64,000 nucleotides of DNA from Conchocele bisecta (Eukaryota > Mollusca > Bivalvia > Lucinida > Thyasiridae), in contig CM055266.1 in assembly GCA_029237695.1 (NCBI GenBank), positions 11,301,805 through 11,365,804 on the forward strand, given 5' to 3'. Position 1 is the stretch's first letter. Each line of letters starts with the position of its first letter. The translations under genes and the position numbers were made by a program. The notes under the pieces were generated by a model that made no database searches, had not been told where the DNA came from, and was given only the letters and a program-made list of their open reading frames with translations. Shown here one piece after another: positions 959-62,057 of this stretch.

Positions 959-1185
959 ATCTGATGGATCAGACGCGGTTTCCTATTGTCGGACAATTCG
1001 TACACCCGTCACTGATGAGGAACCGGTGTGCCATATGCGGTAAAACGTTTTCCCGCCCGTCCCACCTGGCGATCCACGAGCGGGTGCACACCGGCGACCG
1101 CCCGTTCACGTGCAGCATCTGTGGCAAGGGATTCAACGTGAAGTGCAACCTCAAAACGCACATGTTCACACACCTACAGCAATAG
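959..1185 (+). CDS. ZF exon 1: alternative 3'-terminal exon with a C2H2 finger pair
   Basis: Acceptor tattatttcag ends at 958. The exon opens with AT, the last two bases of a split codon, so the ATG at 964 need not be a translation start. It encodes 74 full residues and ends in TAG. Finger 1 is at about residues 23-43 (CAIC...HERVH) and finger 2 at 51-71 (CSIC...HMFTH), joined by a canonical TGDRPF linker. All eight zinc ligands are present. Recognition helices read RPSHLAI and VKCNLKT, so DNA binding as the C-terminal part of a longer nuclear protein is expected. No donor is needed because the frame stops three residues after finger 2. A T3 foldback element begins 125 bp downstream, probably within the 3' UTR. 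AATAAA occurs at about 1479 and 1700. The upstream constant exon is outside the window. Confidence 0.92.
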
Positions 1186-1309
1186 GAGTATTGTAGGAGA
1201 CACACACAGTAGTACAGATTTGCGTATGGTCTTATACAATTGTATATACATACACTATCTACGTTTATATTGCATAGGCACTTCTCGTAGCGCATAATGC
1301 CTATACAAT

Positions 1310-1548
1310 TTAACTCTTTGCATGCTGGGAAATTTGTGGGCTATAAATAGTTCAAAAATAGCAGATGACAATTTATTATATTTTCTTTTATTTCTCCTTA
1401 TAAATGTCATGAATATGTCTTGGAATTTCATTAGAATTGAGTCTTCAATTCTAATGAAATTTCAAGATATTTACAGAGTAATAAAACGTATACATGTACT
1501 CCTAATTCGTTTGGCGGATATTTTCGCCGCTAGCATGCAAAGAGTTAA
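1310..1548. mobile_element. T3 foldback MITE, TTAA-flanked
   Basis: TTAA, then ctctttgcatgct, at the left and agcatgcaaagag, then TTAA, at the right. Arms pair over most of the element (gtcttggaatttcattagaa against ttctaatgaaatttcaagat). Related copies are at 4182, 12558, 19008 and 33599. Confidence 0.85.
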
Positions 1549-1734
1549 ACGTGTTTGCTAGTACACTGAAGAACCTGTATTGGAAATGCATTAAAACGTA
1601 ACGTTTATCCGGTACGAAAGTGCCTTTAAACATATATTGTAGAATATATGCCACGTGGAACGTCTCGTTTCGTTAACACCACTGTTGTTTATTACTTGCA
1701 ATAAAATACTTGATTGGAAGTTTATATTTGTGGT

Positions 1735-1830
1735 AATGTTTTAATTTTTGTTGCGCCTGCTTGCGGACAGCGCGATATAGTTGGCACATTGGCGTACGTG
1801 TTAAATTTTTCGGTATACTATCAAAGCCTT
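1735..1830 (+). repeat. Dispersed repeat with hairpin head (gttgcgcctgcttgcggacagcgcg)
   Basis: A short GC-rich hairpin followed by agttggcacattggcg and a gttaaatttttcggtata stretch. The same order is seen at 22165-22250, and a related head occurs at 16250, 25850 and 53806. Function unknown. Confidence 0.5.
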
Positions 1831-2013
1831 GGCGGGCACAACATGCAGGCCGCAGCCATCTAGTGTAACAATTAGTCTTGACAATACTGAAACACTGTAG
1901 CTCCAATCTATACAGCTCGTTATGGACCGTCTTATCTCGATCGACAATGCTAACATTTGGATCGAAGTATGTTGTGTTGAAAGGGTTCATCAACAGCGTT
2001 GTGCAAATATGAC

Positions 2014-2414
2014 CAGGGCTCCAGATAAGGAATTAGTAATTGAGTATTTTCACTCCCATCATTTCTGAAGCAATTGGGTATTTCAAAATTGTAATTCGGT
2101 AACTGAAAATCACACTACTGTTTACACATCAACAGACAGCAATTATTGAATAGTTTGCTTCAAAATGAAAACGTGTCTTGGCATTTCATTAGAATTGTCT
2201 CCTTGGAGACAATTCTAATGAAATAGCAAGATTTGTTTTCATGGAAAATAAGAACATTTGCTATATTTGTGGTCTGTTTATTGTTTTCCGCAGCATGATA
2301 AAGGGATCACAAAATTGTTATTGCTTTTTGATACTCGCTACTTCTGATTTCAATTGGGTTTTTGGCAATTTTAATTGGGTATTTAAGCAAATACACAGCT
2401 TATCTGGAGCCCTG
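2014..2414. mobile_element. PalE foldback MITE, full length
   Basis: Starts cagggctccagataag and ends cttatctggagccctg, with a central dyad gtctccttggagac flanked by attctaatgaaat arms. CAGGG-type ends resemble hAT elements, but I could not find a convincing 8-bp target duplication. One of the commonest families in the window. Confidence 0.8.
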
Positions 2415-2568
2415 AAGCACATTAGATTGCCTTTCTGATGGAAGGTGTGAACACAATGTGGGAGACATGAATGGTTTATATACCTCAGTGACTGTCTATA
2501 TATACCTCAGTGACTGTCTATATACCATTATGCTAAATTGCGTAATATAACCATGTATTTCACACTAT

Positions 2569-2613
2569 TTTAATTGGGTATTTAAGCAAATACGCAGCTT
2601 ATCTGGAGCTCTG
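2569..2613. repeat. Solo right end of PalE
   Basis: Only the terminal segment (ttaattgggtatttaagc ... cttatctggagctctg) is present. A 27-bp duplication (tatataccTCAGTGACTGTC type) lies just before it at about 2478-2525. Nothing else is recognised from 2614 to 3115. Confidence 0.6.
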
Positions 2614-3115
2614 ATATGACAGACTCGTCATCATCAGTGGCCAGAGCTTCGCCATAAAAGGGTACATCAGCACACCGTCATGAACAACGATATACGGCCA
2701 AAGTATATTGACTAAAAAATACTTTTTGTATGGTTCTGCAGTGAACTCGTATGCGTCATATTTACTCTCGATTTTCCATCCGTACATCCGTGTGTGGTCA
2801 TGTAAACATTGCAATCTTCTAATGATTTAATGTTCATATGCGTGGTCCTGTATTCCCGGGTGTTCACTTGTTTTACAGACGTTTAATTTAATATTCATCA
2901 ATTTGTAAATGCGGGAGATATGCGTTTAATATTAATTGCTCATTCATACATTATCCCGCTGTTTAACGTGTTTGTTTTTTTAATCAGTCTCGATTATATT
3001 GATGTGCTGTCTTGTCTACCTGCCATAAAATGCCCTTGTCGGGTGCAGACACGCACACACCTGTGAAACTGTCCTGATTCTGTAGCATGTGTGGTGCAAG
3101 AATGTAGGACAAAAC

Positions 3116-3583
3116 CCCCGTGGACATAACCCCTTTCGTATGAAAATGACAACATGGACAAAACCCCCTTCATGATTTGTACAGGGTGGACATAACCCTC
3201 TTCATGATTTTTACAGGGTGGACAAAACCCACTTTATTAATTCCCGGGATGAATAAAATATTTTTTTGTTTTTATTATTATTGACGATATTATTTTACTA
3301 CAATTTAAAAATTTTATAATATACAACAAACAAATATTCATATATTGGCTAATGAAAACATTCAAGTAACAGAACAGAGAAAACAACAGAACAGGGCATA
3401 TACTAATACATGTACCAGGTTTCACAAATTTATTCCAACACATATTGGTTATGTTCACCCTGTAAAAAATATGAAGGGGGTTATGTCCACCCTCTCAAAA
3501 TCATGAAGGGGGTTTTGTCCATGTTGTCATTTCACATGAAGGGGGTTATGTCCAAGGGGGTTTTGTCCAAGGGTGTTTTGTCC
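3116..3583. mobile_element. Inverted-repeat element built of ggacaaaaccccc / ggacataaccccc motifs
   Basis: The left arm (3116-3238) carries repeated ggacaaaaccc and ggacataaccc motifs. The right arm (about 3455-3583) carries the reverse complements gggggttttgtcc and gggggttatgtcc. The middle is AT-rich and non-coding. Confidence 0.7.
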
Positions 3584-3644
3584 GGATACCGTGGTGCAAC
3601 GTCGTTGCATGTGTTTTAAAACATTGATACAAGTGGTAGAGATC

Positions 3645-3890
3645 GGGGGCGCGTTTCACTAAACTTCGTACGACTAAAATGTTCGTAAGTGGAAATTTAG
3701 GATCGTCTGGAAATTTCAATTGATGGATTTACATTTATTGAGCATAGGCTGCATATGCAGCCTATGCTCAATAAATGTAAATCCAACAATTTTTTATTAA
3801 AAAATATTGTTAATGTAAAATTTACAGACTATCATAATTTTGCACTTACGAACATTTTAGTCTTACGAAGTTTAGTGAAACGGCCCCCTG
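3645..3890. mobile_element. PalF foldback MITE
   Basis: Ends ggggcgcgtttcactaaact and agtttagtgaaacggccccc. The centre, gcataggctgcatatgcagc, runs into its own complement. Full or partial copies occur at 9104, 13787, 18136, 20211 and 43706. Confidence 0.85.
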
Positions 3891-4181
3891 GAGTCCTACT
3901 GTCCATTTACCATCACATTGTGCATGTCAGTCCTTTCCCACCCACTATAGCATTCTCACTATGCTTCCGATACATTCATATACTGTCTTTATGATGTTGC
4001 ATTTATGCTAGCATTGCTTTCTATTTTCCAATTTACTGACTGCCTATATTGTGAACCGGTTATCTGGTGAACCGATAGCAATCGTATTTGTAGATAGGTG
4101 ATGGGTGGGTACGCTCATTTTTATATCCACAAATCCATCACTGCTATGACTACGCGGAGTAACACCTTGTGTGAAATGATC

Positions 4182-4428
4182 TTAACTCTTTGCATGCTGA
4201 GAAACTTGTGGGCTATAAATAGTTCAAAAATAGTTGACAAAAATTCCTCATATTTTCTTGTATTTCTCCCCGTAAATATCATGAATATGTCTTGGAATTT
4301 CATTAGAATTGAGTCCTCAGGACTCAATTCTAATGAAATTTCAAGACATATTTTATACCGAGAGAAATAAAATATATACTCATAATTTGTTTGGCGGATG
4401 TTTTCATCGCTAGCATGCAAAGAGTTGA
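4182..4428. mobile_element. T3 foldback MITE
   Basis: TTAA plus ctctttgcatgct at the left. The right end has agcatgcaaagag followed by TTGA, a decayed TTAA. Central dyad gagtcctcaggactc is perfect. Confidence 0.85.
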
Positions 4429-4566
4429 TAGTTGAGGACACAAACTGCTTGAACTGTATGTTATGGTTTCAATGCTGAAAGTATTTTGCAATTTCAATGA
4501 TGCATTTGTGGTACATATGTATTACGGTAGCTATATTTACTGTGTTCTTTTTCATGTGATTCTTTT

Positions 4567-4700
4567 CCCTGCATGTGACATAATTTTGTCCACCTTGTGG
4601 AGACGTTCTGTAGCCGATTTCATCAAAATTGCACCCTGCATGTGACATAATTTTGTCCACCTTGTGGAGACGTTCTGTAGCCGATTTCATCAAAATTGCA
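4567..4700 (+). repeat. 67-bp tandem duplication
   Basis: The segment starting ccctgcatgtgacata at 4567 repeats at 4634 almost without change. The second copy runs into the left end of the PalD element, so the duplication includes the PalD terminus gtagccgatttcatcaaa. Confidence 0.8.
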
Positions 4701-4982
4701 AAGTATACTTATCTAGCAAAGTATACTTTGAGGGAGTAATCATTTATTTTTCCCAAAATGCATTATTTCATATAGAACTAACCACTGCACATATTTGATG
4801 ATTAAACATATGCAGAATTATTATACTGAATTTATTACATTATCACAGCCAAAATGGCTGTGATAATGTAATAAATTCAGTATAATAAAAATTAATAAAT
4901 TTATCCTTAAATTGAAAATTTCTCCCTCAAAGTATTCTTTGCTAGATAAGTATACTTTGCAATGTTGGTGAAATAGGCTACT
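4677..4982. mobile_element. PalD foldback MITE
   Basis: Ends gtagccgatttcatcaaa and ggtgaaataggctac. Sub-terminal repeats of aaagtatacttt. The centre is a long palindrome, gtgataatgtaataaattca with its complement around ccaaaatgg. Confidence 0.85.
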
Positions 4983-5042
4983 GTTGTTGTTAGCTTCAGC
5001 CTGAGACGAAAGGCTGGCCAATGGTTGGTTTCAAGCTATTAT

Positions 5043-5413
5043 CAAGGTGTATGATCACGTGGTACTAACAACAACAACAAGTACCGAGTCCAAGTACGTA
5101 TTCTTGTATAGTGTCCTTATTACGTATCAAACGCGTCTTGTTAAGCTGCATTTGGTGGTCTCTGTATTTTCGCCCAAACTTCTGTCGTTTTTGCAAAGAA
5201 TCGATTTCTGTGTCTCCGACACGGAAATCGATTCTTCGCAAAAACGACATAAGTCTGTGCCAAACTCTCTAGACCACCAAATGCAGCTCATGAAGACGCG
5301 TTTGCTGCGCCATATTTCATCAAAATCCGTTGCGTATTAAGGAAAATATCAAATAATACTTACTTTGGAGTGGGCGGCGTTGTTGTTGTTGTAACCACGT
5401 GATCAAGCACCTT
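5043..5413. mobile_element. PalC foldback MITE
   Basis: Starts caaggtgtatgatcacgtgg and ends ccacgtgatcaagcacctt. Centre gaatcgatttctgtgtctcc / gacacggaaatcgattc. Flanked by ATTAT on both sides if the end bases are c and c. Each arm carries an E-box CACGTG. Confidence 0.85.
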
Positions 5414-5685
5414 CATTATGTACCTAGCATTCAACATAAAGCATTAACTGATGCTGGTAATATTTATTCTCCTGTTCCAACATATGTAGCGTAACCAATG
5501 GGTGTGTAGCATGCCATTTGGTCTATCCAGCAAATTTCAATATGTTATGATGATGATCATTGTTTACAAGTCGAGGCTAGCTGTTTTATTACGGAGATAG
5601 TTTCGTACTTATCGCCCAATGTCATTAACATATTGTACATACATTACACATAACGCTAATACAATATTCATTTCTCAAATTTCAG

Positions 5686-5930
5686 ATTCGTTACTCCACC
5701 AACAAGGTGGGATGCTGGATGGCGCCGCGTTCATAAGTACTGATGGTTACCAAAGTAGAAAGCTAAACCACATGTGTCTCGACTGCGGGAAGTGCTTTGA
5801 TAGATGGTCCCACCTGGAACGGCACCGTAATTCACACCTGGGAATCAAACCGTTTACCTGCAACATATGCAACAGATCATTCACGCAGAAAAATAACATG
5901 AAATGCCACATGATCACTCATCTAAAATAA
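5686..5930 (+). CDS. ZF exon 2: alternative 3'-terminal exon with a C2H2 finger pair
   Basis: Acceptor tttctcaaatttcag ends at 5685. The first two bases, AT, complete a split codon, and 80 full residues follow to TAA. Finger 1 is at about residues 30-50 (CLDC...HRNSH) and finger 2 at 58-78 (CNIC...HMITH). All zinc ligands are intact. The inter-finger linker LGIKPF departs from the usual TGEKPF, which may loosen the relative placement of the fingers. Helices read RWSHLER and QKNNMKC. The 29-residue lead-in has no recognised domain. The open frame extends upstream of the acceptor by chance; the acceptor, the phase shared with nine other exons and the start of protein-like sequence favour 5686 as the true edge. 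A PalC element ends 270 bp upstream and a PalL element begins 170 bp downstream. Confidence 0.92.
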
Positions 5931-6099
5931 CTAAACAGGTACATTCCCAGAACATGTCTTCATGAGATGTCAACATTATGTCACGTGCAGCAACTGATTC
6001 ATCACCATCATGGTAATTCCCTAATTACTGACTTGCACAGGCCGGAGAATTCCCACTGTTTCCGAGCCGAGCCTGATACACTTGGTGTCAACAGGTACC

Positions 6100-6452
6100 A
6101 GAGATCCAGATAAGTTTCGTATCAAAAGAGTATTATACCCCCAGATTTCAAATTCACTGCATATTTTACTTTTACAAGTGTATTATTGATTTTCTTCATT
6201 ATTAAATAGGGAACAAATGATAAAAAATCACTTATTTGAGCTGCAAAAAGCAAACAGTTTGCAGCTCAACTAAGTAAATTTCAACTTTATTACAGTATTT
6301 TCACTACTCAATTTGAAAATCAATACGTATTTCCACATTGGTGGGAGTATTTCGTACTCCCACCTTTGATAACTAGTGCGTATTCTGCTTAAATAAGTGC
6401 GTAAAATACGCCAATATGCCAATATGCCATTATGCACCTTATCTGGAGCTCC
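6100..6452. mobile_element. PalL MITE
   Basis: Ends agatccagataag and cttatctggagct, like PalE, but the interior differs. It has an inner palindrome tgagctgcaaaaagcaaaca / gtttgcagctcaa and agtactcccacc inverted motifs. Other copies at 28242 (partial) and 37844. Confidence 0.75.
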
Positions 6453-6740
6453 GGGTACTATGTCAAAACCCTTGATATCTAAAGGAACTAGCTTGGCATA
6501 TATAATCAAGTAACATTTTATGATATAAAACGCCAAAGTTCAGCGTGGTTTTAGTTCAAACGAACAGTTACGGTTTACAATCACTGCTACGGTAACATTT
6601 GAAGCAAAGCTTGCAGTATACGTTTTTGTATAGTGACATTTTGCGAATTACAAAATGCATTGATGTTTCAACACATTAATCGTGATCCACTGACCCGTTC
6701 AACTGCACCGTAATGCCTGTAGCAGCTAACACATACAGTC

Positions 6741-6880
6741 TTAACCCTTACAATGCTGAATTAATTTGTGTCGTCTGCTGAATATTTGTTATTTTCCATT
6801 TTTCTCATCAAAAACTTGGTTGGACAAAATATGAATTAACAGCAGACGACTATTTTCGGTTCCCGCATTCTAAGGGTTAA
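6741..6880. mobile_element. T2 foldback MITE, internally deleted
   Basis: TTAA-bounded, cccttacaatgctgaatt at the left and gcattctaaggg at the right. At 140 bp it lacks the central dyad seen in full T2 copies of about 215-250 bp. Confidence 0.8.
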
Positions 6881-6894
6881 ACTAGGAACGCGGG

Positions 6895-7090: not shown

Positions 7091-7242
7091 GTGTGTTTTA
7101 CGAGTTTTAACATATCCAGCAACTATGTGTACACACGAGCTCAATCTACATTGCAAGTGTTTTATTACATGTGTACCTTTTTCTGTCCTGCGCTCCATAG
7201 TTATCGCCGAACAAGTGTATGTTCGTACATCAATCACTGTCA

Positions 7243-7634: not shown

Positions 7635-7705
7635 ACTGTTATACGGTCACTTACATTTATTTGTGATGTGTGTTTCTTATAGGGAGGACGGTAAATGGGC
7701 AGAAA

Positions 7706-12042: not shown

Positions 12043-12281
12043 ATCTTGACACTGGACTGACTGGCGTGCCGTATGCCGAACAACAGGACCAGAGCATAAT
12101 GGGCAGATACACGTGTGAGTATTGCGCGAAGACCTTCCGCTGGCAGTCACACCTGGACCTACACGTGCGAATTCACTCCGGATCTAAACCGTACTCGTGT
12201 ACCGTCTGTGGTCGAGGATTTTCCCAGAAAGGAAGTTTACAGAGGCATATAGTGTGTGTACATAGCATGCTAGCGGAGTAA
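12043..12281 (+). CDS. ZF exon 3: alternative 3'-terminal exon with a C2H2 finger pair
   Basis: Acceptor tctacttttcag ends at 12042. AT completes the split codon and 78 full residues follow to TAA. The frame is open from the acceptor (LDTGLTGVPYAEQQ) and there is no ATG before the fingers except at about residue 19, so an upstream exon must supply the start. Finger 1 is at about residues 24-44 (CEYC...HVRIH); finger 2 at 52-73 (CTVC...HIVCVH) with four residues between its histidines. Linker SGSKPY. Helices read WQSHLDL and QKGSLQR. The W at helix position -1 also occurs in exon 4, its nearest relative in the window. A T3 element starts about 280 bp downstream. Confidence 0.93.
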
Positions 12282-19937: not shown

Positions 19938-20167
19938 CGTACTGCATATCGTTTGACGACTCTATGTACCTGTCGGGACAGTCGGCCGACCAGGAGGACA
20001 AGTCATTCTCCTGTGATACGTGTGGCAAATCGTTTCCATGGAAATCACACCTGGACATGCACCGGCGCATCCATTCTGGCGCCAAGCCATTCGTGTGTGG
20101 TGTGTGTAACAAGGGATTCACCCAGAAAGGCAACATGAAGACACATATGTTCACTCATATGTCATAA
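19938..20167 (+). CDS. ZF exon 4: alternative 3'-terminal exon with a C2H2 finger pair
   Basis: Acceptor tgttctctattacag ends at 19937. The first two bases are CG, so the split codon is NCG; 75 full residues follow to TAA. Finger 1 is at about residues 25-45 (CDTC...HRRIH) and finger 2 at 53-73 (CGVC...HMFTH), linker SGAKPF. Helices read WKSHLDM and QKGNMKT. An acidic stretch (residues 16-20, ADQED) precedes the fingers. The finger sequence is closest to exon 3 (W at helix -1, SHLD) and shares the FTQK.NMK finger 2 with exon 2, consistent with descent of exons 2-4 from one duplicating unit. A damaged PalF copy starts 44 bp after the stop, so the mature 3' UTR probably includes it. Confidence 0.93.
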
Positions 20168-30281: not shown

Positions 30282-30583
30282 ACACGACGATGTTGAGCTC
30301 CTGGCAACAGTCACAGCACCCCGGTTATACAGCACACATTGAGCCCTCGGTTGCTGTGTCCAGACCATCAACCGCCGTCGCCCCGCCACCACCACGTAAC
30401 CCGTCGCTGGAATGTGATGTGTGCGGCAAACAATTCCTATACCGGTCACGGTTTGAAGAACACTACAGGATTCATTCGGGAGAGAAACCATTCATTTGTA
30501 ATGTTTGTCACCGCGCCTTCTCCAAGAAGATTTCCCTCAAGGCCCATATGTTCACGCAGCACATGCAAATCTTGAAAATCTGA
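30282..30583 (+). CDS. ZF exon 5: alternative 3'-terminal exon with a C2H2 finger pair
   Basis: Acceptor tttattttattgcag ends at 30281. AC completes the split codon (NAC); 99 full residues follow to TGA, the longest of the ten. A lead-in of 43 residues is rich in Ser, Pro and Ala, including APPPPRNP at about residues 33-40. Finger 1 is at about residues 44-64 (CDVC...HYRIH) and finger 2 at 72-93 (CNVC...HMFTQH, four residues between histidines), with the consensus linker SGEKPF. Helices read YRSRFEE and KKISLKA. This is the first exon of the second sequence type, marked by EHYR before the linker. A PalC element begins 13 bp after the stop codon, so any transcript ending here must either polyadenylate at once or carry a long hairpin. 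Confidence 0.93.
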
Positions 30584-34619: not shown

Positions 34620-34885
34620 GTGACCGGTTCTCCTCATATGGCCAATCCGTCCCTGGTACGTCCAGTAGAATGGCAACGATGGACAGTGTGGATCCGGATG
34701 ATTCCTGTGTCATTGGCCTGCGATACAAGTGCGATGTCTGCGGCAAAATATTGCTGTACAAGTCGAAGTTTGAGGCGCACTATAGACAGCACACCGGCGA
34801 CAGACCGTTTGTTTGCCCGGATTGTGGGCGCTCATTTCGCCAGAAACGCTCCCTCACCAGTCCACGTTCTCATCGTTCATACTAA
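34620..34885 (+). CDS. ZF exon 6: alternative 3'-terminal exon with a frameshifted second finger
   Basis: Acceptor gatattccattccag ends at 34619. GT completes the split codon; the frame as it stands has 87 full residues to TAA at 34883. Finger 1 is at about residues 37-57 (CDVC...HYRQH), though the usual Phe is Leu (GKILLYK). The linker is TGDRPF. Finger 2 starts normally (CPDCGRSFRQKRSLTS, residues 65-80) but then reads PRSHRSY and stops, losing the paired histidines. One base later in frame the sequence reads HVLIVHTKTQHD, exactly the H-x4-H ending seen in exons 3, 5, 7, 8 and 10, with a stop at 34899-34901. The surplus base is within the tcc at 34861-34863. This may be a real inactivating mutation or a consensus error; the sequence is otherwise finger-like and not decayed. 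Confidence 0.85.
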
Positions 34886-40059: not shown

Positions 40060-40295
40060 ATTATATGCCTACCGGCCCACGTGTATCTCGGGATCGTGAC
40101 TCTCAAGGAGCGGTCGGCACCATAATACACTGTGACGTTTGCGGCAAGACATTCGCATTCAAGTCGAAGCTGCTGGAACATTACGTGAAACATACTGGCG
40201 AGAAACCGTACACGTGTACCGTGTGTCATCGGGGTTTCACCCGCAACCGGACCTTGAAGTTCCATATGGTTGCCCAACACGGCCAGTCGTTTTAG
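40060..40295 (+). CDS. ZF exon 7: alternative 3'-terminal exon with a C2H2 finger pair
   Basis: Acceptor taattctgttacag ends at 40059. AT completes the split codon; 77 full residues follow to TAG. Finger 1 is at about residues 24-44 (CDVC...HYVKH) and finger 2 at 52-73 (CTVC...HMVAQH, four residues between histidines), linker TGEKPY, the animal consensus. All zinc ligands intact. Helices read FKSKLLE and RNRTLKF. The lead-in (YMPTGPRVSRDRDSQGAVG) is basic and polar with no known domain. Second sequence type, close to exons 5, 6, 8 and 9. A perfect-arm hairpin lies about 190 bp downstream; no AATAAA is obvious close to the stop. Confidence 0.93.
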
Positions 40296-44190: not shown

Positions 44191-45104
44191 CGACACGGGT
44201 GGGTGGCAGGTGGGAGCATGCACTGGGTAATTTAACGATCGACACGGGTGGGTGGCAGGTGGGAGCATACACCGGGTAATTTAATGATCGACACGGGTGG
44301 GTGGCAGGTGGGAGCATGCACTGGGTAATTTAACGATCGACACGGGTGGGTGGCAGGTGGGAGCATGCACCGGGTAAATTAACGATCGACACGGGTGGGT
44401 GGCAGGTGGGAGCATGCACCGGGTAATTTAACGATCGACACGGGTGGGTGGCAGGTGGGAGCATGCACCGGGTAGTTTAACGATCGACACGGGTGGGTGG
44501 CAGGTGGGAGCATGCACTGGGTATAACGTTCGACAGGTGTGGGGTGGCAGGTGGGAGCATGCACGGTAATTAAGATCGACGACGGGTGGGTGGGCAGGTT
44601 TGGTGGCATGCACGGGTAATGAACGGATCGACACGGGGGTGGGTGGCAGGTGGGGAGCATGCACTGGGTAATTTAACGATCGACACGGTGTGGGTGGCAG
44701 GGTTGTGGGAGCATGATGGGTAATTTAACGATCGACACGGGTGAGTGGAGGGGTGGGAGCATGACTGGGTAAGTTTTTTAACGATCCGACACGGGTGGGT
44801 GGCAGGTGGGAGCATGCACTGGGTAATTTAACGATCGACACGGGTGGGTGGCAGGTGGGAGCATGCACTGGGTAATTTAACGATCGACACGGGTGGGTGG
44901 CAGTGGGGGGGTGGGGGGGGGCATGCACCGGGTAATTTAACGACGGGTCAGTGGGGTGGGGACACGGGTGGTGGGAGGGGGTGGCACTTTTTTTTTTTTT
45001 TGGGTGGGGTTTGTTTAACGATCGACACGGGTGGGTGGCAGGGTAATTTAACGATCGACACGGGTGGGTGGCAGGTGGGAGCATGCACTGGGTAATTTAA
45101 CGAT
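44191..45104 (+). repeat. 49-bp minisatellite made of S-element heads, about 18 units
   Basis: Unit: cgacacgggtgggtggcagg + tgggagcatgcactgggtaa + tttaacgat. Outer units are nearly identical; 44521-45030 contains many indels and a poly-T. The last unit runs directly into the body of an S element. Confidence 0.93.
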
Positions 45105-45935: not shown

Positions 45936-46510
45936 GACCTGCAGAAAAGCGCTACTGTATGTATATTGTGCTTATTTCATTTGCATGTATTAGCTTAGCA
46001 TATTGTCGTCTCATATTTGTCAGCAATACATGATTTACGCCAGTGAAAAGCAAGACAGTCATACCCGTCATATGTACATGTCTTGGAGCTGCATGTTTCT
46101 GGATATTCCGATTACCCAAGTTCAGGTCGTATCTAGCCGAATGTTTATTATTTATTTTATGTCTGAGGAAATATCATTTACCTGTATTCGACATCTGGGT
46201 GTTTGAGGAAAATGGCGGAAGTTATTCAACTCCACGTAATACTATGATAGATATGCATACATTGTCTTTTGTATATGGCTTATCCTCGTACATTTCCCAC
46301 AATTTAGAATTATTTGCTAGGACCTATACGATACACAAGACAAGTCACACACACATTTCATCTATGTTATCTGATATATAATACCTTTGATTGTTTCATA
46401 TAATCGGAGTCTTTAGTCCTGTTTGTTTCAGCTTATTTTATTTTGCGGACAGATACACTATTTTGTTATGTCATGTATCGTTACATATGAACACTCTTTT
46501 ATGTAAATGT
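45936..46510. other. No supported gene
   Basis: The overlapping 67- and 112-codon frames here have no recognisable motif and no good splice context. The last bases form the exon 8 polypyrimidine tract. Confidence 0.5.
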
Positions 46511-46523: not shown

Positions 46524-46771
46524 ATTGGTCGGGCGGATTAGCAGGAGATGCAATGTTAATGATGCCCCCGATAGGAGGGTGTATGGAGCCGAGATACAGG
46601 TGCAAGGTGTGCGGCAGGAGGTTCCTCTACAGCTCCAAACTGCAGGAACATTACCGCAAACACTCGGGAGAGAAACCGTTCTCCTGCGTACTGTGTGGCA
46701 AAACATTCAGCCAGAACTACAACCTGAACCAACACATGCTGAAGGTGCACTCAACCCACGGCTTGGCATAA
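46524..46771 (+). CDS. ZF exon 8: alternative 3'-terminal exon with a C2H2 finger pair
   Basis: Acceptor tacttttattacag ends at 46523. AT completes the split codon; 81 full residues follow to TAA. Finger 1 is at about residues 26-46 (CKVC...HYRKH) and finger 2 at 54-75 (CVLC...HMLKVH), linker SGEKPF, all ligands intact. Helices read YSSKLQE and QNYNLNQ. The lead-in is small-residue and Met-rich (WSGGLAGDAMLMMPP). The frame is open for 45 codons upstream of the acceptor, but that part is low-complexity intron. AATAAA lies 50 bp after the stop (46822), the clearest polyadenylation signal of the array. No repeat intrudes between stop and signal. Confidence 0.94.
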
Positions 46772-48412: not shown

Positions 48413-51400
48413 TTGTATTGATATACTCCCAAGAAACTATAACGTTGTCTGAATAATAGATTGGTATAGCTATACTCCAGGAAACGATAGCGTTGTCTGA
48501 ATAATAGATTGGTATAGTTATATTCCAAGAAACGATAACGTTGTCTGAATAATAGATTGGTATAGATATACTCCAAGAAATGATAGCGTTGTCTGAATAA
48601 TAGATTGGTATAGCTATACTCCAAGAAACGATAGCATTGTCTAAATAATAGATTGGTATAGTTATACTCCAGGAAACGATGGCGTTGTCTGAATAATAGA
48701 TAGGTATAGTTATATTCCAAGAAACGATAACGTTTTCTGAATAATAGATTGGTATAGCTATACTCCAGGAAACAATAGCATTGTCTGAATAATATATTGG
48801 TATAGATATACTCCCAAGAAACGATAGCATTGTCTGAATAATAGATTGGTATAGTTATACTCCAGGAAACGATGGCGTTGTCTGAATAATAGATTGGTAT
48901 AGTTATATTCCAAGAAACGATAACGTCTGAATAATAGATTGGTATAGCTATACTCCAGGAAACAATAGCATTGTCTGAATAATATATTGGTATAGATATA
49001 CTCCAGGAAACGATAGCGTTGTCTGAATAATATATTGGTATAGATATACTCCAGGAAACGATAACGTTGTCTGAATAATAGATTGGTATAGCTATACTCC
49101 AGGAAACGATAGCATTGTCTGAATAATATATTGGTATAGCTATACTCCAGGAAACGATAGCGTTGTCTGAATAATAGATTGGTATAGCTATGCTCCAAGA
49201 AACCATAGCATTGTCTGAATAATATATTGGTATAGATATACTCCAGGAAACGATAGCGTTGTCTGAATAATAGATTGGTATAGCTATGGTCCAGGAAACG
49301 ATAGCGTTGTCTGAACAATAGATTGGTATAGCTATGCTCCAGGAAACGATAACGTTGTCTGAATAATAGATTGGTATAGCTATACTCCAGGAAACGATAA
49401 CGTTGTCTGAATAATAGATTGGTATAGCTATTCTCCAAGAAACCATAGCATTGTCTGAATAATATATTGGTATATACTCCAGGAAACGATAGCGTTGTCT
49501 GAATAATAGATTGGTATAGCTATACTCCAGGAAACGATAGCGTTGTCTGAATAACAGATTGGTATAGCTATGCTCCAGGAAACGATGGCGTTGTCTGAAT
49601 AATAGATTGGTATAGCTATACTCCAAGAAACGATAGCGTTGTCTGAATAATTGATTGGTATAGCTATGCTCCAGGAGACGATTGCGTTGTCTGAATAATA
49701 GATTGGTATAGCTATGCTCCAGGAAACGATAGTGTTGTCTGAATAATAGATTGGTATAGTTATGCTCCAGGAAACGATAGCGTTGTCTGAATAATAGATT
49801 GGTATAGTTATACTCCAGGAAACGATGGCGTTGTCTGAATAATAGATTGGTATAGTTATACTCCAGGAAACGATGGCGTTGTCTGAATAATAGATTGGTA
49901 TAGTTATAAATTTAAGAAACGATAGCGTTGTCTGAATAATAGATTGGTATAGTTATGCTCCAGGAAACGATGGCATTGTCTGAATAATAGATTGGTATAG
50001 CTATTCTCCAAGAAACGATAGCGTTGTCTGAATAATTGATTGGTATAGCTATGCTCCAGGAAACGATGGCGTTGTCTGAATAATAGATTGGTATAGCTAT
50101 GCTCCAGGAAACGATTGTGTTGTCTGAATAATAGATTGGTATAGTTATGCTCCAGGAAACGATAGCGTTGTCTGAATAATAGATCGGTATGGTTATATTC
50201 CAAGAAACGATAACGTTGTCTGAATAATAGATTGGTATAGCTATGCTCCAGGAAACGATGGCATTGTCTGAATAATAGATTGGTATAGCTATTCTCCAAG
50301 AAACGATAGCGTTGTCTGAATAATTGATTGGTATAGCTATGCTCCAGGAAACGATGGCGTTGTCTGAATAATAGATTGGTATAGCTATGCTCCAGGAAAC
50401 GATTGTGCTTGTCTGAATAATAGATTGGTATAGTTATGCTCCGTGGAAACGGACGATGCGTTGTCTGAATCAATAGATTGGTAGATTTTCAGGAACGATG
50501 CGTTGTCTGATAATAGGATTGGTATCCGTTAATATAAGAAACGATAACGTTGTCTGAATAATAGATTGGTATAGTTATACTCCGGAAACGGAAATGGCAA
50601 TGTTGATAATAGGCATTGTATAAGCTATCTCCAAGAAACGATAGGTTGATTAATTGGATTGGTATAGCTTAGCTCCAAAGGAAACGATGGGTTGTCTGAA
50701 TAATAGAAATGGTATCAGCTATGCTCCAGGAAACGATTGTGTTGTCTGTTAATAATAGTTTTATTGTATAGTTATGCTCCAGGAAACGATAGCATGTCGA
50801 TGAATAACTAGATGGTATAGTTGGTATATTCTAAGAAATCGATAGCGTTAGTCTGAATAATAGATTGGTATAGCTATACTCCAGGAAATTCGATGGCGTT
50901 CGTTCTGAATAATAGATTGGTATGTTATGAACTCTGGAAACGATGGGATAGCGTTCGATGGGTTGTCTGAATAATAGATTGGTAGTAGATGATGCTCAAG
51001 ATTACGGTTAGCGTTGTGTCTGAATAATAGATTGGTTATAGTTATATTCTAAGAAACGTACTTGTCTGATAATAGCTTGGTTATGCTATACCCAGGAAAC
51101 GATGGCGTTGTAATGAATAGATTGGTATAGTTATGCTCCAGGAACGATTGCGTGAATAATGATTGGTATAGTGATGCTCCAGGACGGTAGCGTTGTCTGA
51201 ATAATAGATTGGTATAGTTTATATTCAAGAAACGATAGGTTGTGAATATAGATTGGTATAGTTATATTCTAAGAAACGATAGCGTTGTCTGAATAATAGA
51301 TTGGTATAGTTATATTCTAAGAAACGATAGCGTTGTCTGAATAATAGATTGGTATGTTATTATCTAAGAAACGATAGCGTTGTCTGAATAATAGATTGGT

Positions 51401-51560
51401 ATAGTTATATTCTAAGAAACGATAGCGTTGTCTGAATAATAGATTGGTATAGTTATATTCTAAGAAACGATAGCGTAGTCTGAATAATAGATTGGTATAT
51501 TTATATTCCAAGAAATGATAGCGTTGTCTGAATAATAGATTGGTATAGTTATGCTCCAGA
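48413..51560. repeat. 48-bp minisatellite, about 65 units
   Basis: Unit: ggaaacgatagcgttgtctg + aataatagattggtatagct + atactcca. Main variants are tatgctcc, tatattcc/taag and gatggcg. Because 48 is a multiple of three and lacks stops in two minus-strand frames, it yields frames up to 440 codons with a 16-residue period. 50400-51250 is rich in small indels. Confidence 0.95.
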
Positions 51561-52125
51561 AAATGATTTGTGACTGAATGGTAGACATCATTTATTGTGT
51601 ATAGTTTCTTTAAAATTGTCCTAATCTCTTCCCTTCTGTTACGGCCAGTCTTTTTTTTTTTTTTACATTTGTTTATACTCGTACAAACTTAGAATCTATT
51701 CCTCAATTATTAACACATGTAGTGCATTTCGATAAAATAATGTTAAACCTGCCATGATAAAAAATCTAACCTTTGTTCACAGGTTCTGTTATCTAGTACA
51801 TTGTAACTGAATAATTGCAAATTATGTCTGTTACACATGTACAATTATAATTATATTCCATAACAATTTTGTTAGCATTCCATATTGGTTTGGTAGATAA
51901 CGTTTTTGCTTTCTTTCTTTCTAGATTATTCCGCATTGAGTTTGCGCTTGTATTTTCCGTATCTATTGCCAAATTTCGATGTTGATGTTTACCTGTTATT
52001 CACCACTGCGTATTGCACTCCAATTGGCATCATACTTGATACCAAGGAACGAACCAACAATTAAAATCAGTATATTGCGTTCTACATGGTAATGAAGACT
52101 GTCTACATGTCATGTTAGTATTGCA
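51561..52125. other. No gene or recognised repeat
   Basis: AT-rich sequence with a 15-base T run near 51650. Confidence 0.55.
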
Positions 52126-52570: not shown

Positions 52571-52842
52571 ATGCGCTCCACGGTTTCGAAGTTCCACTTC
52601 CGAATACCCTGATGAATGTGTATGGGGCTAATCCGACAACGCTGAATGCTACAGAGAAAGAAATTGGAGCCAAGTTTGTCTGTGGTGAATGTGGCAAACA
52701 ATTCCAGTTCAAGTCGAGATACGAGGATCACTATCGCAAACACACGGGAGCCCAGCCGTTTGTGTGTCAAATATGTGGAAAAGGCTGCTCCCTGAAAAGC
52801 AACCTCACAAAGCATATGTATACGCATATGAACCTTCCATGA
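52571..52842 (+). CDS. ZF exon 9: alternative 3'-terminal exon with a C2H2 finger pair
   Basis: Acceptor attgtctcattgcag ends at 52570. AT completes the split codon; 89 full residues follow to TGA. Finger 1 is at about residues 37-57 (CGEC...HYRKH) and finger 2 at 65-85 (CQIC...HMYTH), linker TGAQPF. Zinc ligands intact. In finger 2 the conserved core Phe is Cys (GKGCSLK), a change shared with exon 10. Helices read FKSRYED and LKSNLTK. The ATG at 52612 is internal to the exon: thirteen codons (ALHGFEVPLPNTL) lie between the acceptor and it in the same frame. An imperfect 64-bp duplication follows at 52936. Confidence 0.93.
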
Positions 52843-56201: not shown

Positions 56202-57300
56202 TGGTCTCAAATGGTTATACATGTATCTCATAGTATGTCTGATATGTGTAGTACTTGTGGCTACTCAAACGTGGTCTGATGGATGTATTGGTGTAAGATA
56301 AGTATGACACGTTATATGATGGAATTTAGGAGACGTATTGCTTTGCTCTTGATATTCCATAGATTCTTGCATTGATGTTATTATTGGTGGTCGTTGTGTA
56401 AGCCTGTCAATTCAATTTATTAGCGCTTAAGCATAATTTGCTTCTCGCCAAACTTAACATTGCCCTTGGCGATGCGAGAAGAGCAAAGGATATACAAGTG
56501 CTATATTGCAACTATATAAAAATATATATAACATGATAACCTGTGGTTCGCGTTCTGCCCAGTGGAAACCATTCTGTGATTGCACTGATCCATTCATGCG
56601 TCGGCGGATCTGCACCATGACTAGTCGCAGATCATGCCAGATGTAACATTTCCACTGGTAAGACCACAGCTCACTTGTGTATCTATCCATTATGATAATT
56701 TTTAATTATAGTTTATACACTATATTGGAGACTGTCGTGCAGTTCTCCCAGTTTTGACAGCTGTGGTTTTGTGGTGGCAGGCCTGATCTACATGTAGGTC
56801 AGTGTCCCAGCTAGCGAGAGTGCATGATCATTTTAGATATGCTAATTTTGACAATGGAATTATTGGCTAAATTATATAGTTCAGAGGTCGCGGGAGCAGG
56901 GAGTGACATCCGCTGTCCCGGGAATTCAGTTTGCAAGTTGTCTTAATCTGGTTTCATTTTCTGTGGTCATCTAACATGTGTATTTAGTTTTGGTTGCCCA
57001 TCTTCAATAGTACATTGCTTGCACAAGTGATTGTGTCTATATATCCACATGTCTGTATCGACCTTCCCTCAATCTCAAGTTTGTGGGCTGAGCATCGACA
57101 TCTGGTCCGCTCGATTCTAAATGCACCGTCTATGACACCAGATACCGGTATATATTTCTCAATAGAATACAATTTATATATTTCTCAATAGAAATAAAGT
57201 TTCTGACTATCTGTTTGCGGTCTTTGTGGTTTCAAGTGCATGTCTTGTTTTGTCAATGCATTCAGGGGGGGATCCAGCATTTGGGGTACGGGGGGGTTGT
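56202..57300. other. No gene or recognised repeat
   Basis: Open frames of 62-78 codons are present on both strands without motifs. tatatttctcaatagaata is duplicated at about 57150 and 57178. Confidence 0.5.
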
Positions 57301-57398
57301 CTAGTTGCGAAGGTAACTCTTGCAATCTACTCCCGTACCGTCCGTAGCTAGCTACGGACGGTACGGGAGTAATTGCAAGAGTTACCGTTCGCAACTAG
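57301..57398. repeat. Palindrome with cgcaactag ends
   Basis: ctagttgcgaaggtaactct + tgcaat pairs with attgcaagagttaccgttcg + caactag. Centre accgtccgtagctagctacg + gacggt is exact. Related to 46-103. Confidence 0.85.
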
Positions 57399-57761
57399 GG
57401 GGTGTTGTCCTATGTTCGAGCTCTTCAAAATGCACTTTCCTGTGTTTTTACGGCATTTAAATTCAGACTCCAACTGGTGATAAACTGTGATCTATGTAAA
57501 CTCCGTGGCTGAGCGGGTGGTTGCAATACAATATATCACCCAAGTATTGATTTTGACTTCCCGTCGAACAATATCGGATTAAACATATTGTGTGAGAGCA
57601 TTGCAATGTGTGATCAAGTGGCGTGCGACATTGACTTGCGGTCAGTTCCAGTAGGGCAAACATTGACATAAATAACCATGAGCCCTTGTCTCAGACTGTA
57701 CACTGTTAAAATAGTGTTGATTCCGTCACACATTATGATGTTGAGTAAATGCAATTTGTAC

Positions 57762-57918
57762 ATGGCTAGAGCTGCGTATTTGCTTAAATACCCAATTAAA
57801 ATTGTCAAAAACCCAATTGAAATCAGAAGTAGTGAGCATCAAAAGCAATAAAAAATGGTGGTAGCTTTTATCATGCTGCAGAAAGCAATAAACCGACCAC
57901 AAATCTAGCATGTTTTTG
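57762..57918. mobile_element. PalE, one half
   Basis: agagctgcgtatttgcttaa to gaccacaaatctagcatgtt, where similarity ends at the hairpin head of a dispersed repeat. Confidence 0.75.
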
Positions 57919-58780
57919 GTCGAGCCCACTTGCAGAAAGCGAGACAGTGATCACAATGACGTCCGGGTGTCCATCCGTCATGTGCGTCCGTCCGGGCACA
58001 CATTAGGGTACTTATGTGGCTAGCCCCACAGGGTTATGGACTTGTTAAAGGATAGGGTTGGTTATAATTAGCCACCTAAAAAATCGTTTTATGTGGCTAA
58101 AAATCGTTTTATGTGGCTAATATTTAACATGTGATAAGCCACATAAGTACCCTAATGTAAGAACATCCGTCCGTTCGTCCGTCCGAAATCTGCGTTAAAG
58201 TTTTTAAATACCTTATATCTCTGCAGTCCTAAGTTACATTGACTTGAAACCTCATATGCTTATTAGTCATCAGCCATATATTCATGTTGTATCCCACTCA
58301 TGTGACCCCTGTGCCCAAGGTCAAGGTCAAATGACTTAGAAGTTTGCGTTAAATTTTTGTCAAACTTTGTGTTAAAGTTTTCAGATACCTACTATCTCTG
58401 TAACCGTAAGTCAGATTTGCTTGAAACTTTGTATGCTTATTGGGCATCATCCATATTATATTCATTCTGTATCCCACTCATGCGGCCCCTGTGCCCCAAG
58501 GTCAAGGCCAAATGACTTAGAAGTTTGCTTTATTATAACATCTGCGTTAAAGTTTTTAAATACCTTATATCTCCACAATTATTACTCCAATTTACTTCCA
58601 ACTTCCAATACTTCCTTTTCATCATCCACATTTTCATTCCATAGCCTGCTCATGTGGTCCACATGCCCAAGGTCAAATGACTTAAGTTTTTACATACCTT
58701 ATATCTCCACAACACTTACTCCGATTTACTTCAAACTTCAAATAATTCTTTATTATCAACCATATCTCGACATGCGGGCC
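57919..58780 (+). repeat. Dispersed repeat with hairpin head and four body units
   Basis: Head ttggtcgagcccacttgcag + aaagcgag, gtccgtccgg runs, then units of taccttatatctct, attcattctgtatcccactc and cccaaggtcaaggtcaaatg. Confidence 0.7.
57999..58159. mobile_element. Short MITE with acattagggtacttatgtgg ends
   Basis: Both ends intact: acattagggtacttatgtgg at the left and ccacataagtaccctaatgt at the right. The left flank (cgtccgggcac) is the same as for the copy at 34267. Confidence 0.82.
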
Positions 58781-58785
58781 GCGGC

Positions 58786-59817
58786 CATCTTGGTACTTCA
58801 TTAGAATTGTCTCATTTAGAAGTAAACTATTCAATAATTGCTGTCTGCTGATGTGTAGACAGCAGTCAGGGCACGAAAATTCCACTCGTCCGCTCGTATT
58901 GACGAGTGACATTTCCGCTCGGGCGAGTAGAAAATCCATGTCGGTCGTCCGACCGGACGAGTGACAATTTCCAGTCTTGGCTAACAACAATAATCCATCT
59001 GTCACATAATGTGGTTCAACTATGTCATGTAGTAATGATAGTAACATTACCAAATGGTCTGTGAAGTCGTGTTTACGTTGTTCAAAGCAAATGACGTTTT
59101 ATTATTCTAAGGGAGATCACTAACAGTACTAGCTCTGTATGTGTCTATTCTAACGGACACGTCGATGTTGGGGCTAATTTGGTAGCTGGCCGACAAACAG
59201 GTTTGAAGTTTACATTGATTATAAACAACTGCGGGGAGAATGATAAATAATATAACGCATACTATTTTACTATTATTACGGATCTGATTTAGTAGAAAGT
59301 ACTGACAATTGTCCGGAAATCGTTTCGAAAATCAGGTCGGAAATTAGCGCTTTGTGACGAGTTGAGATCGGGCCGAGTTACATTTCTTTAGTTGTGCATG
59401 TCGTGTCGTAATAAATTTTGTAAACCCCGCATTGTCGGAGTCGAGTTATTCGATAATATTCGTGTGTTTCCGTATGAGTCCGTATAATAGACAATGCGAG
59501 TATGAAATATCCCGAAAGTTGCCGAATATTAATGTACGTCGTCTGCAAAAAATAAACAAACATGGCCGACATTAGAAATTTCTTCCAAGGCGGGGGTGAT
59601 CAAGAAAAGAAGGACATATGCAGGACTAGTGATACTTGGCACAGGACGAGTGGAGATTTTTGGGTACTCGTCCTGCGGGACGAGTGAGAAAATTGAAAAT
59701 TTTCGTCCCCTGAGCAGTGTGATTTGATTTTACCCAATTAAAATTTTGAAATACCCAATTGTTTCAGAAATGATGGAGTGACAATACTCAATTACTAATT
59801 CTTTATCTGGAGCACTG
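58786..59817. mobile_element. PalE fragment, split by another element
   Basis: ttggtacttcattagaattg and gtgtagacagcagt before the insert; gtgatttgattttacccaat to ctttatctggagcactg after it. Confidence 0.8.
58866..59712. mobile_element. 0.85-kb element with cagggcacgaaaatt ends, nested in PalE
   Basis: Left cagggcacgaaaattccact, right aattttcgtcccctg. AGCAGT flanks both sides and is present once in uninterrupted PalE-type context. Sub-terminal ctcgtc / gacgag motifs recur (tattgacgagtgac, cggacgagtgac, ggacgagtgag). No transposase-like frame. Confidence 0.75.
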
Positions 59818-59819
59818 CA

Positions 59820-60026
59820 TGGCTGTCGTTGTTTGACACCGCTCACAGCTGTGTTCAACGTAATGCGTGTGTCTCACGACATTACTACAACGCGCCATTA
59901 CATCACCAGACCTATACATGCATTACGTGCATTGGCCCCGAAATGAGCATTGTCTTCAGCCGTAGTCAAACAACACACACTGTATGTTTGAACACGGCTG
60001 TGAGCGGTGTCAAACAACAAGTCATG
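59820..60026. repeat. Inverted repeat, 40-bp arms
   Basis: atggctgtcgttgtttgaca + ccgctcacagctgtgttcaa pairs with ttgaacacggctgtgagcgg + tgtcaaacaacaagtcat. It adjoins the PalE right end. Confidence 0.8.
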
Positions 60027-60062
60027 TAAAAATATGTAATTATAACGTCTAGTGTCGGGTTG

Positions 60063-60274
60063 TTAACCCTTAGCCTGCTGAATGAAATCTTGTCGTCTGC
60101 TGTTTGTTTTATTTTCGATTTTTCTCATCAAAAACATGGTTTGACAGCACTTTAGAATCATTTCCATTGGAAATGATTCTAAAGTGCTGTCGATCCATGT
60201 TTTTATTGAGAAACGGGGCAAAAAATAAAGCAACAGCAGACGACCGTTTTCGCGATCAGCAGGCTAAGGGTTAA
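60063..60274. mobile_element. T2 foldback MITE, agcctgctga end variant
   Basis: TTAA, cccttagcctgctga at the left; tcagcaggctaaggg, TTAA at the right: 15 terminal bases exactly complementary although they differ from other T2 ends. Centre catttccattggaaatg. Confidence 0.92.
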
Positions 60275-60375
60275 CGGGGAGATGTAGAAATACTTACGAA
60301 GGCATTTCCAAGCGTGTGCTGCATACTGTGCCAATATTGTGACCATCCACAACAAGAATGCCTCACAGAACCAGC

Positions 60376-60595
60376 TTAACCCTTACAATGCTGAATTAAA
60401 TTGTGTCGTCTGCTGAATATTTTTTATTTTCCATTTTTCTCATCAAAAACATGGTATGGCAGCACTTTAGAATCATTTACATTGGAAATGATTCTAAAAT
60501 GCTGCCAAACCATGTTTATACTGAGAGAAAAGACAAAATATGAATTAATAGCAGACGTCTATGTCTATTTTCGGTTCCTGCATTCTAAGGGTTAA
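60376..60595. mobile_element. T2 foldback MITE, inverted relative to 17500 and 21080
   Basis: TTAA, cccttacaatgctgaatt at the left; cctgcattctaaggg, TTAA at the right. The second T2 within 320 bp. Confidence 0.9.
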
Positions 60596-60705
60596 GGGAA
60601 TCTTGGTGTAAATGGAACACAACAAATACTCACACATCCCTCTTTTATATAGCAGACTTGTTCTTCACATTTTCATATTTTCAACACAAAGAATACAATT
60701 TGAAG

Positions 60706-60792
60706 TTTCATGTTCATGAAAACACATCTTGGTAGTTCATTAGAATTGTCTCCAAGGAGACAATTCTAATGAAATGCCAAGATATGTTTTAT
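60706..60792. repeat. PalE core only
   Basis: gttcatgaaaacacatcttg, centre gtctccaaggagac, then ccaagatatgttttatgttg. Outer arms missing. 60793-61306 shows no feature. Confidence 0.75.
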
Positions 60793-61306
60793 GTTGTGGA
60801 ACACCTGATGCATTGTGAAACGGTTTGTCGGCAGGCAAGATTAGGCAGACAGCAGCAAATCTTTATTGTCCCACATACTTTATCACCTACACACTGTATG
60901 GCTGATCCCTGCGTTGCTGCCACCCATGCTGGTACTCTGTATGGAAGATCATATAGTATGTGATGGAGGCTATTTATAATTGATCATGAGACATTATAGT
61001 TAGATGTGACTCACCATAACAAAGGTGGCTTATTGATGTGGTGACCGGTGTTGTTAATGATCAACTACCAGTCACACAGCCTGATACAGATCTAATGTTT
61101 TCTTAGTAGACGTAACACATATCTTCCCAAGTCGATAACGTAAACAAAATGTCATTAATCAGACATTGCTTTCAAGTGCAAGAGACATGCATCCTCTTTG
61201 TCATGATGAGTCGCATATAATTATTAATATTACATCGGTTACAGCTCTGACTATTTACTAAAACAATTAATCCAGTAGTTTACAACAATATAACCCGCCC
61301 TGTATT

Positions 61307-61753
61307 AAGGTGCATGATCATGTGGTTAGAACAACAACAGCAATGGCTGAATGTGTTGACAGCGCGCCCACTCCAAAATAAGTATTATTTGATAGTTTCC
61401 TTAATATGCAACGGATTTTAATGAAATATGGCGCAGAAAACGCATCTTCAGGAGCTGTATTTGGTGGTCTCAGGACTTCGGCACATACTTATGTCGTTTT
61501 TGCGATGCATAGATTTCCGGGTCGGTATTGTCAGTAAACACGGAAATCGATTATTCGCAAAAACGACAGAAGTTTGGGCCAAAGTACCGAGATCACCAAA
61601 TCCAGCTTAACAAGATGCGTTTGATGCGCCATATTTCATCAAAATCCGTTACATTATAACGGCACCATGAAGGAATACATACCTTGAATCGGAGGCGCTT
61701 CTGGAAATTTCGGTACTTGTTGTTGTTGTTGTAACCACGTGATCATGCACCTT
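61307..61753. mobile_element. PalC foldback MITE
   Basis: Left aaggtgcatgatcatgtggt, right ccacgtgatcatgcacctt. Left E-box changed to CATGTG. Centre gtcggtattgtcagtaaaca is worn. Ends 85 bp before the exon 10 acceptor. Confidence 0.83.
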
Positions 61754-61839
61754 GTGTATGACACGTAATGTTGCCGGCACTTTCAGAATCCAGTAGTATT
61801 GTTGAACAAAATTAACATCACACCTTTGCTCCGTTTCAG

Positions 61840-62057
61840 GAGTTCTCAGTGCCCCGCTGGAAGGCCACAGCTTGGCGGCCCAGATGGTGTGCTGCAACCA
61901 ATGTCAAAAGGTGTTCTACTGCCGCTCGGCGCTGACGCTGCATGAGAGGACCCACTCGGGCGCCAAGCCGTATTGTTGTGATTTCTGTGGCTTCTCCTGC
62001 TCCCAGAAGGGCAACCTGAAACGACACATCGCCAATATGCACCATGATCAGCTGTAA
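61840..62057 (+). CDS. ZF exon 10: alternative 3'-terminal exon with a C2H2 finger pair
   Basis: Acceptor gctccgtttcag ends at 61839. GA completes the split codon; 71 full residues follow to TAA, the shortest of the ten. Ten codons (VLSAPLEGHS) precede the TTG at 61872, and the frame is continuous from the acceptor. Finger 1 is at about residues 18-38 (CNQC...HERTH) and finger 2 at 46-67 (CDFC...HIANMH), linker SGAKPY. Ligands intact; extra Cys residues sit beside the finger 1 and 2 ligands (VCCNQC, YCCDFC), and the finger 2 core Phe is Cys. Helices read CRSALTL and QKGNLKR. It lacks the EHYR mark of exons 5-9 and is nearer to exons 1-4. A diverged PalD relative begins 61 bp after the stop. 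Confidence 0.92.

Follow-up and report, generated by a model that had tools for sequence, protein, structure and literature searches.

INTRODUCTION

In Drosophila, the genes broad, tramtrack and fruitless each combine one common part, headed by a BTB domain, with a few alternative ends that carry a pair of C2H2 zinc fingers. The clustered protocadherins, which are cell-surface proteins, also draw on arrays of variable exons; these come first, and each has its own promoter. The vertebrate proteins SALL and BCL11A bear several fixed clusters of fingers and have no array of alternative tails. To our knowledge, large loci in which a transcription factor acquires one of many alternative tails have been described from arthropods and in connection with the BTB domain. 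PMC11426971 gives 20 isoforms for lola, 17 of them with C2H2 fingers, and at least 30 isoforms with alternative C-termini for mod(mdg4), whose trans-spliced products join a BTB head to tails that are mostly of the FLYWCH type; the same paper reports that a search which took in Mollusca recovered no TTK-type BTB domain from any group other than Arthropoda. According to PMC1947980, lola joins a common region to unique C-terminal exons by both cis- and trans-splicing. Here, we describe a locus of comparable layout in the bivalve Conchocele bisecta (Mollusca). The starting point was a stretch of 64,000 nucleotides (hereafter, the window) at C2:11301805–11365804 of the 1.89-Gb genome, in which a prediction made from the sequence alone had placed ten alternative 3′-terminal zinc-finger exons, by comparison with Drosophila genes in which such ends are spliced to a common BTB exon. 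The window very probably represents the middle of a single 258-kb transcription-factor gene, in which common exons encoding a head and a linker are followed by 30 alternative tails, one being used per mRNA. No description of such a locus in molluscs was found in the literature searched, a weak negative given that most subscription journals and preprints lay outside its scope.

RESULTS

Thirty finger-pair exons lie on one strand

Scanning the window in six frames yielded ten finger exons, all on the plus strand, with usable acceptors at the positions given in the original prediction. Flanks of 130 kb upstream and 100 kb downstream were added (294 kb in all, the downstream limit being C2:11465804), and both strands were searched with a profile made from the ten finger pairs of the window. 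This rendered 30 strong matches (E ≤ 5 × 10–12), every one on the plus strand. Twenty of them were new, 14 lying upstream of the window and six downstream; the ten exons first proposed are real, but the extent of the array had been understated, since it is three times larger. The tails are spread over 218 kb, with spacings of 1.9–21.2 kb (median 5.8 kb). The next-best match (E = 5 × 10–7) was on the minus strand at window-relative positions 163151–163429, and the remainder began at E values of about 0.3.

The best acceptor, as judged by a simple home-made score, was of phase 1 in 29 of the 30 tails (binomial chance 3 × 10–13), and a cruder count of pyrimidines gave a phase-1 acceptor in 26 of the 30. 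In the exon starting at 46524, the phase-1 acceptor ranks second by score, the higher-scoring one, at 46432, being out of phase. Strong donor patterns were searched for inside the tail exons and none was found, as had been claimed for the exons of the window.

The ten candidate terminal exons of the window are all on the plus strand and all have phase-1 acceptors (positions are counted from the first base of the window, and a slash marks the splice point). Nine encode two intact C2H2 fingers followed by a stop: 959–1185 (ttattatttcag/ATCTGA), 5686–5930 (ctcaaatttcag/ATTCGT), 12043–12281 (tctacttttcag/ATCTTG), 19938–20167 (tctctattacag/CGTACT), 30282–30583 (attttattgcag/ACACGA), 40060–40295 (attctgttacag/ATTATA), 46524–46771 (cttttattacag/ATTGGT), 52571–52842 (gtctcattgcag/ATGCGC) and 61840–62057 (gctccgtttcag/GAGTTC). 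In the remaining one, at 34620–34885 (attccattccag/GTGACC), finger 1 is intact but finger 2 is broken, and it is only here that the claim of exactly two fingers per exon does not hold. Elsewhere in the array, the tails at –65518 and –34061 have irregular fingers.

Other elements were seen in and around the array. A 48-base unit is repeated in tandem some 65 times at window positions 48415–51567, where the minus strand reads as long repetitive open frames, and a 49-base unit is present in 14.5 tandem copies at 44191–44907. Two pieces of open frame lie between tails on the minus strand, at C2:11400548–11401458 and C2:11429997–11431252 (window-relative 98744–99654 and 128193–129448); we take them to resemble LINE endonuclease/reverse transcriptase. 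A C2H2 exon of a different build, on the minus strand at C2:11464952–11465233 (window-relative 163148–163429), probably belongs to a neighbouring gene and likely marks the downstream limit of the locus.

Common exons upstream encode a head with no recognisable BTB domain

One long open frame, lying 100 kb upstream of the window, has …AEGY at its end and then runs into the donor GGATAC A/GTAAGT, which is of phase 1 and matches the tail acceptors. Two further common exons were located using the proteins of relatives as queries, and the splice sites were then paired. On the plus strand, and in window-relative positions, common exon 1 (–105827 to –105738, with its ATG at C2:11195977) encodes MSAPDLEVIKEIPGYKVILKAVLKAQIQQL, common exon 2 (–103807 to –103651) encodes VEQLAAHTDEESVILTASVSDGTLCHLGSESGKVFLEDHDDIKSQFLGFCLKR, and common exon 3 (–100650 to –99667) provides a linker of about 328 residues and the phase-1 donor. 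The locus would then cover C2:11195977–11454066, with 34 kb between the linker exon and the nearest tail. A search of the 294 kb with the relatives' proteins showed no second head. Since all the parts lie on one strand, cis-splicing suffices to join them.

Small two-finger genes that are independent of one another and arranged in tandem, every one having a promoter and start of its own, might also leave exons kilobases apart (the median being 5.8 kb), and there is an in-frame ATG in the lead-in of several of them. Such genes would not, however, be expected to have acceptors all of one phase, nor to lie behind a single upstream head with a matching donor, and the head and linker are, moreover, common to the predicted isoforms of relatives (see below). 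We therefore consider this explanation very unlikely, and one gene with alternative tails is preferred.

The head comprises about 85 residues with the conserved blocks PGYKVILK and FLGFCLK, while the linker carries the motif EITGVE. Motifs of the form hydrophobic-K-x-E, probably sumoylation-type sites, occur twice in the linker of C. bisecta and two or three times in that of all nine relatives checked. The head, together with a set of 11 heads, returned nothing above the cut-off against Pfam; matches to PDB sequences did not rise above chance level for either one head or a profile of 11 heads, and in NCBIfam one head protein had matches at chance level alone while another had no match. An AlphaFold model of the head placed helices at residues 15–37, 60–68 and 70–102 with middling confidence. 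Foldseek returned 325 matches at E ≤ 10, the best 50 of these 325 being zinc-finger structures.

Common exons were found upstream, as the original prediction required, but the BTB exon that it had suggested looking for was not. None of 142 scored BTB matches in the whole genome lay near the locus (69 of 219 first-look candidates were left unscored), and BTB was absent from the four relatives scanned and from the 11 heads. The locus shares with TTK-type BTB loci the presence of common exons with a phase-matched donor and of several terminal finger exons ending in a stop (here 30); it differs from them in that no BTB was found in the common exons and, among the proteins listed, in that the head does not have an arthropod distribution. 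The layout, with a common N-terminus and alternative C-terminal finger exons, is what would be seen if the locus truly belonged to the arthropod lola/tramtrack BTB group and had diverged. Set against this are the lack of a scored BTB match near the locus, the lack of BTB in relatives and heads, and the report in PMC11426971 that the TTK-type BTB was not found outside Arthropoda. The bivalve locus appears to work like lola, but no BTB domain was found in it, and it is therefore not a member of that group; the chance that it is one after all appears minimal.

Predicted isoforms of other bivalves diverge at the same junction

When the linker plus one tail was used as a query, 197 proteins were retrieved, and the head was present in 60 of the best 120 of these 197. 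The best E-values were those of vertebrate zinc-finger proteins, which matched over the fingers only (11–22% of the query); longer matches, covering 51–100% of it at about 32–42% identity, came from the predicted proteins of Mercenaria mercenaria, Ruditapes philippinarum, Mya arenaria and Mactra antiquata. The head alone retrieved 207 proteins, of which 120 were listed, and a second head search with the length range shifted upward retrieved 53, all listed. Among the matches listed, head proteins with a named organism came only from Mercenaria, Ruditapes, Mactra, Mya and Dreissena, all of them Imparidentia; these searches depend on common five-residue words, and 87 of the 207 matches were unlisted, so absence outside Imparidentia is unproven.

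In all, 121 head proteins were grouped by identity over their first 60 residues and over the 60 residues ending at ITGVE. This placed 108 of them in 17 groups of at least two members (eight from Mercenaria, four from Mya, three from Ruditapes and two from Dreissena); 13 singletons were set aside and the contig-derived P0131 was left out, leaving 107 proteins for analysis. In 16 of the 17 groups, the members were identical over 291 to 396 residues, 120 of which follow from the grouping criterion itself, up to …QGY (or AGY, SGY, QSY or QSF), and then diverged. In the seventeenth group, from Mya, one A/V difference precedes the same QGY, at which the sequences were likewise cut. The point of divergence matches the predicted splice junction of C. 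bisecta. All 107 tails begin with one of N, S, K, T, R, I and M, as expected if the split codon starts with A, the last base of the common exon in C. bisecta (background 42%), although S and R have other codons too. Two fingers were present in 95 tails, three in four, one in five and none in three.

The database names of these isoforms include sal-like, EVI1-like, myoneurin-like and Krueppel-like. So many unrelated names are explained by an alternative-tail design, and a SALL/BCL11A-like match in the fingers may be the reason why many isoforms are annotated as sal-like. A few tails were of another kind: that of P0179 (Dreissena) has a DUF3504 domain and no C2H2 finger, P0197 (Mya) has DUF3504 according to a precomputed label, and P0184 (Dreissena) is labelled, also by precomputation, with PF03221 and PF04218, which we take to be transposase-type DNA-binding domains. 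In P0155, a DDE_Tnp_1-like finger fell just under the cut-off. These non-C2H2 tails suggest the capture of domains from mobile elements.

Short contigs join the head to two fingers

Three entries with the source lgn (P0014, P0053 and P0130), presumably contigs assembled from read archives, contain the head, the linker, the QGY junction and two fingers within 1464–1680 bases. They are most simply explained as spliced mRNA, because 34 kb separate the linker exon from the nearest tail in C. bisecta. In three others (P0046, P0191 and P0192), the head and two fingers lie within 1556–2102 bases and the junction motif was not seen where inspected; these possibly derive from related genes. In P0126 and P0131, the QGY junction is followed by only part of a finger pair, and P0157 continues past the junction as unspliced sequence would.

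One head protein, P0199, has seven fingers, so related genes that encode multi-finger proteins occur. This, together with the single strand and single phase of the C. bisecta exons, would be compatible with the finger exons being spliced consecutively into one long protein. Each exon, however, has an in-frame stop and no strong internal donor was found, and in the relatives the linker is followed by exactly two fingers in 95 of the 107 proteins, which makes consecutive splicing extremely improbable. The choice of one tail per mRNA agrees better with these results, and the upstream common exons with their matching donor, the predicted isoforms of relatives and the contigs joining head to fingers all support what had been proposed for the window, a large factor-diversifying locus with alternative 3′-terminal finger exons in a mollusc.

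The tails differ in their predicted DNA-contacting residues

Both fingers have standard spacing in 27 of the 30 tails, and the contact residues (positions –1, 2, 3 and 6) of these 27 form 27 different sets. Position 3 of finger 2 is asparagine in 22 of the 27, and finger 1 is variable there. Between paralogous tails, the contact positions were 24% identical as opposed to 36% for the other finger positions (n = 25 in C. bisecta; other bivalves behaved alike). In nine ortholog pairs from Mercenaria and Ruditapes, the contact positions were 88% identical as opposed to 77% elsewhere in the fingers; two further cross-species pairs, Mya P0150 with Mercenaria P0140 and Mercenaria P0065 with Ruditapes P0023 (from different groups), were dropped from this set. 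Diversification followed by conserved function would give such a pattern. The tail of the P0053 model aligns at 49–51% identity with structures of SALL and BCL11A two-finger clusters (7y3l, 7y3i, 8a4i and 9ylp), and this match in fold and sequence is consistent with two-finger tails acting as DNA-binding units.

The array might instead consist mostly of decaying exon duplicates behind a working gene that uses few tails. The broken finger of exon 34620, the irregular fingers at –65518 and –34061 and the failure to see tail orthologs across the wider clade among 107 sampled tails could all be accounted for in this way. Decay is nevertheless hard to reconcile with an open frame, phase and zinc ligands retained in nearly all of the 30 tails, or with contact residues largely retained between Mercenaria and Ruditapes orthologs. 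We judge it improbable, though less so than the other alternatives considered, and favour an array of working tails.

Further heads with their own finger frames

The head and linker occur together at three more sites of the C. bisecta genome, at C2:64.27 Mb (minus strand), 64.33 Mb (plus) and 64.65 Mb (plus). Around these heads lie at least 52 short finger frames, 23 on the minus strand below the minus-strand head, and 17 and 12 on the plus strand above the plus-strand heads, so that all 52 listed frames are on the predicted strand and side. This number is a lower bound, as the one-tail search used lists 14 of the 30 known tails of the main array, its own query included. Four of the 52 frames were read in sequence and 48 were only counted. 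In all five stretches inspected at C2:64 Mb (one of which, at 64202241, is outside the 52), a phase-1 acceptor is followed by two fingers and then a stop. A further 23 head-like stretches with no linker match (E ≤ 5 × 10–6, 42–73% identical) were seen on C1, C5, C8, C11, C12 and C15 and at C2:148.1 Mb.

DISCUSSION

The arrangement described here would allow each mRNA to consist of the common exons joined to one tail exon and polyadenylated behind that tail. Up to about 30 proteins could then be made, all with the same head and linker but with different DNA-binding specificities, and the fingers would diversify at the residues that contact bases and afterwards be kept by selection. A pair of fingers reads no more than about six bases, and for this reason the head probably serves in multimerisation or in cofactor binding; a role in multimerisation is suggested by the two-finger tails and by analogy with BTB. 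The two conserved sumoylation-type motifs of the linker would probably help to recruit repressors.

Some observations do not sit well with a single gene of 30 working tails. In one of the ten exons of the window, that at 34620, the frame changes after the two cysteines of the second finger, which might reflect an allele, an assembly error or a decaying exon. Poly(A) signals were found within 400 nt of the stop in 19 of 30 tails as opposed to 53% at random places, which is no enrichment. The relatives' isoforms (Mercenaria, Ruditapes, Mya and Dreissena) are gene predictions by name, and taking the lgn contigs for transcripts is our own interpretation. For the C. bisecta tails, no clear orthologs were seen among the 107 tails sampled. 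In finger 1, variability at some of the non-contact positions equals that at the contact positions, and the difference in contact residues between orthologs is, taken alone, weak (Fisher P = 0.07), the pairs having been chosen for high similarity. Finally, in two AlphaFold runs the head was modelled at low to middling confidence, with its fold poorly resolved.

An alternative-tail locus in a mollusc represents the solution known from arthropods, reached with a different head and on a larger scale, namely one locus of 30 tails and, on the same contig, three head loci that add at least 52 candidate tails. In Mercenaria, there are at least eight head-and-linker sequences, each with several tails. 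A more far-reaching scenario, offered tentatively and with more doubt than confidence, is that Imparidentia evolved a BTB-independent system in which a new multimerising head is combined with any of at least 80 tails from four loci; the heads of different loci might co-assemble into a combinatorial code, and the tails might be renewed in part by the capture of transposase-derived DNA-binding domains, as would be expected if the system also tracked mobile elements. The locus offers a separate setting in which to ask how one terminal exon is chosen among dozens, whether heads mix, and how finger specificities are gained and retained.

When the locus is compared with known systems, its likeness to SALL and BCL11A clusters is that one finger pair would be enough for DNA binding. 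With the clustered protocadherins it has in common that a constant part is joined to exons from a variable array; in the bivalve, however, the variable exons come last. Broad, tramtrack and fruitless have a BTB head and a handful of ends, whereas the bivalve locus has 30 ends and a head in which no BTB was found. The number of alternative C-termini on a common N-terminus, about 30, is close to that given for mod(mdg4) in PMC11426971, but the bivalve tails are C2H2 pairs, all on one strand, and no BTB was found. The closest resemblance is to Drosophila lola, in which a common N-terminal part is likewise followed by one of many alternative C-terminal ends, mostly of the C2H2 type; yet where lola has a BTB head and uses both cis- and trans-splicing, the head of the bivalve locus is short and unrelated, its 30 tails all occupy one strand, and it has no fewer than three sister loci in the genome.

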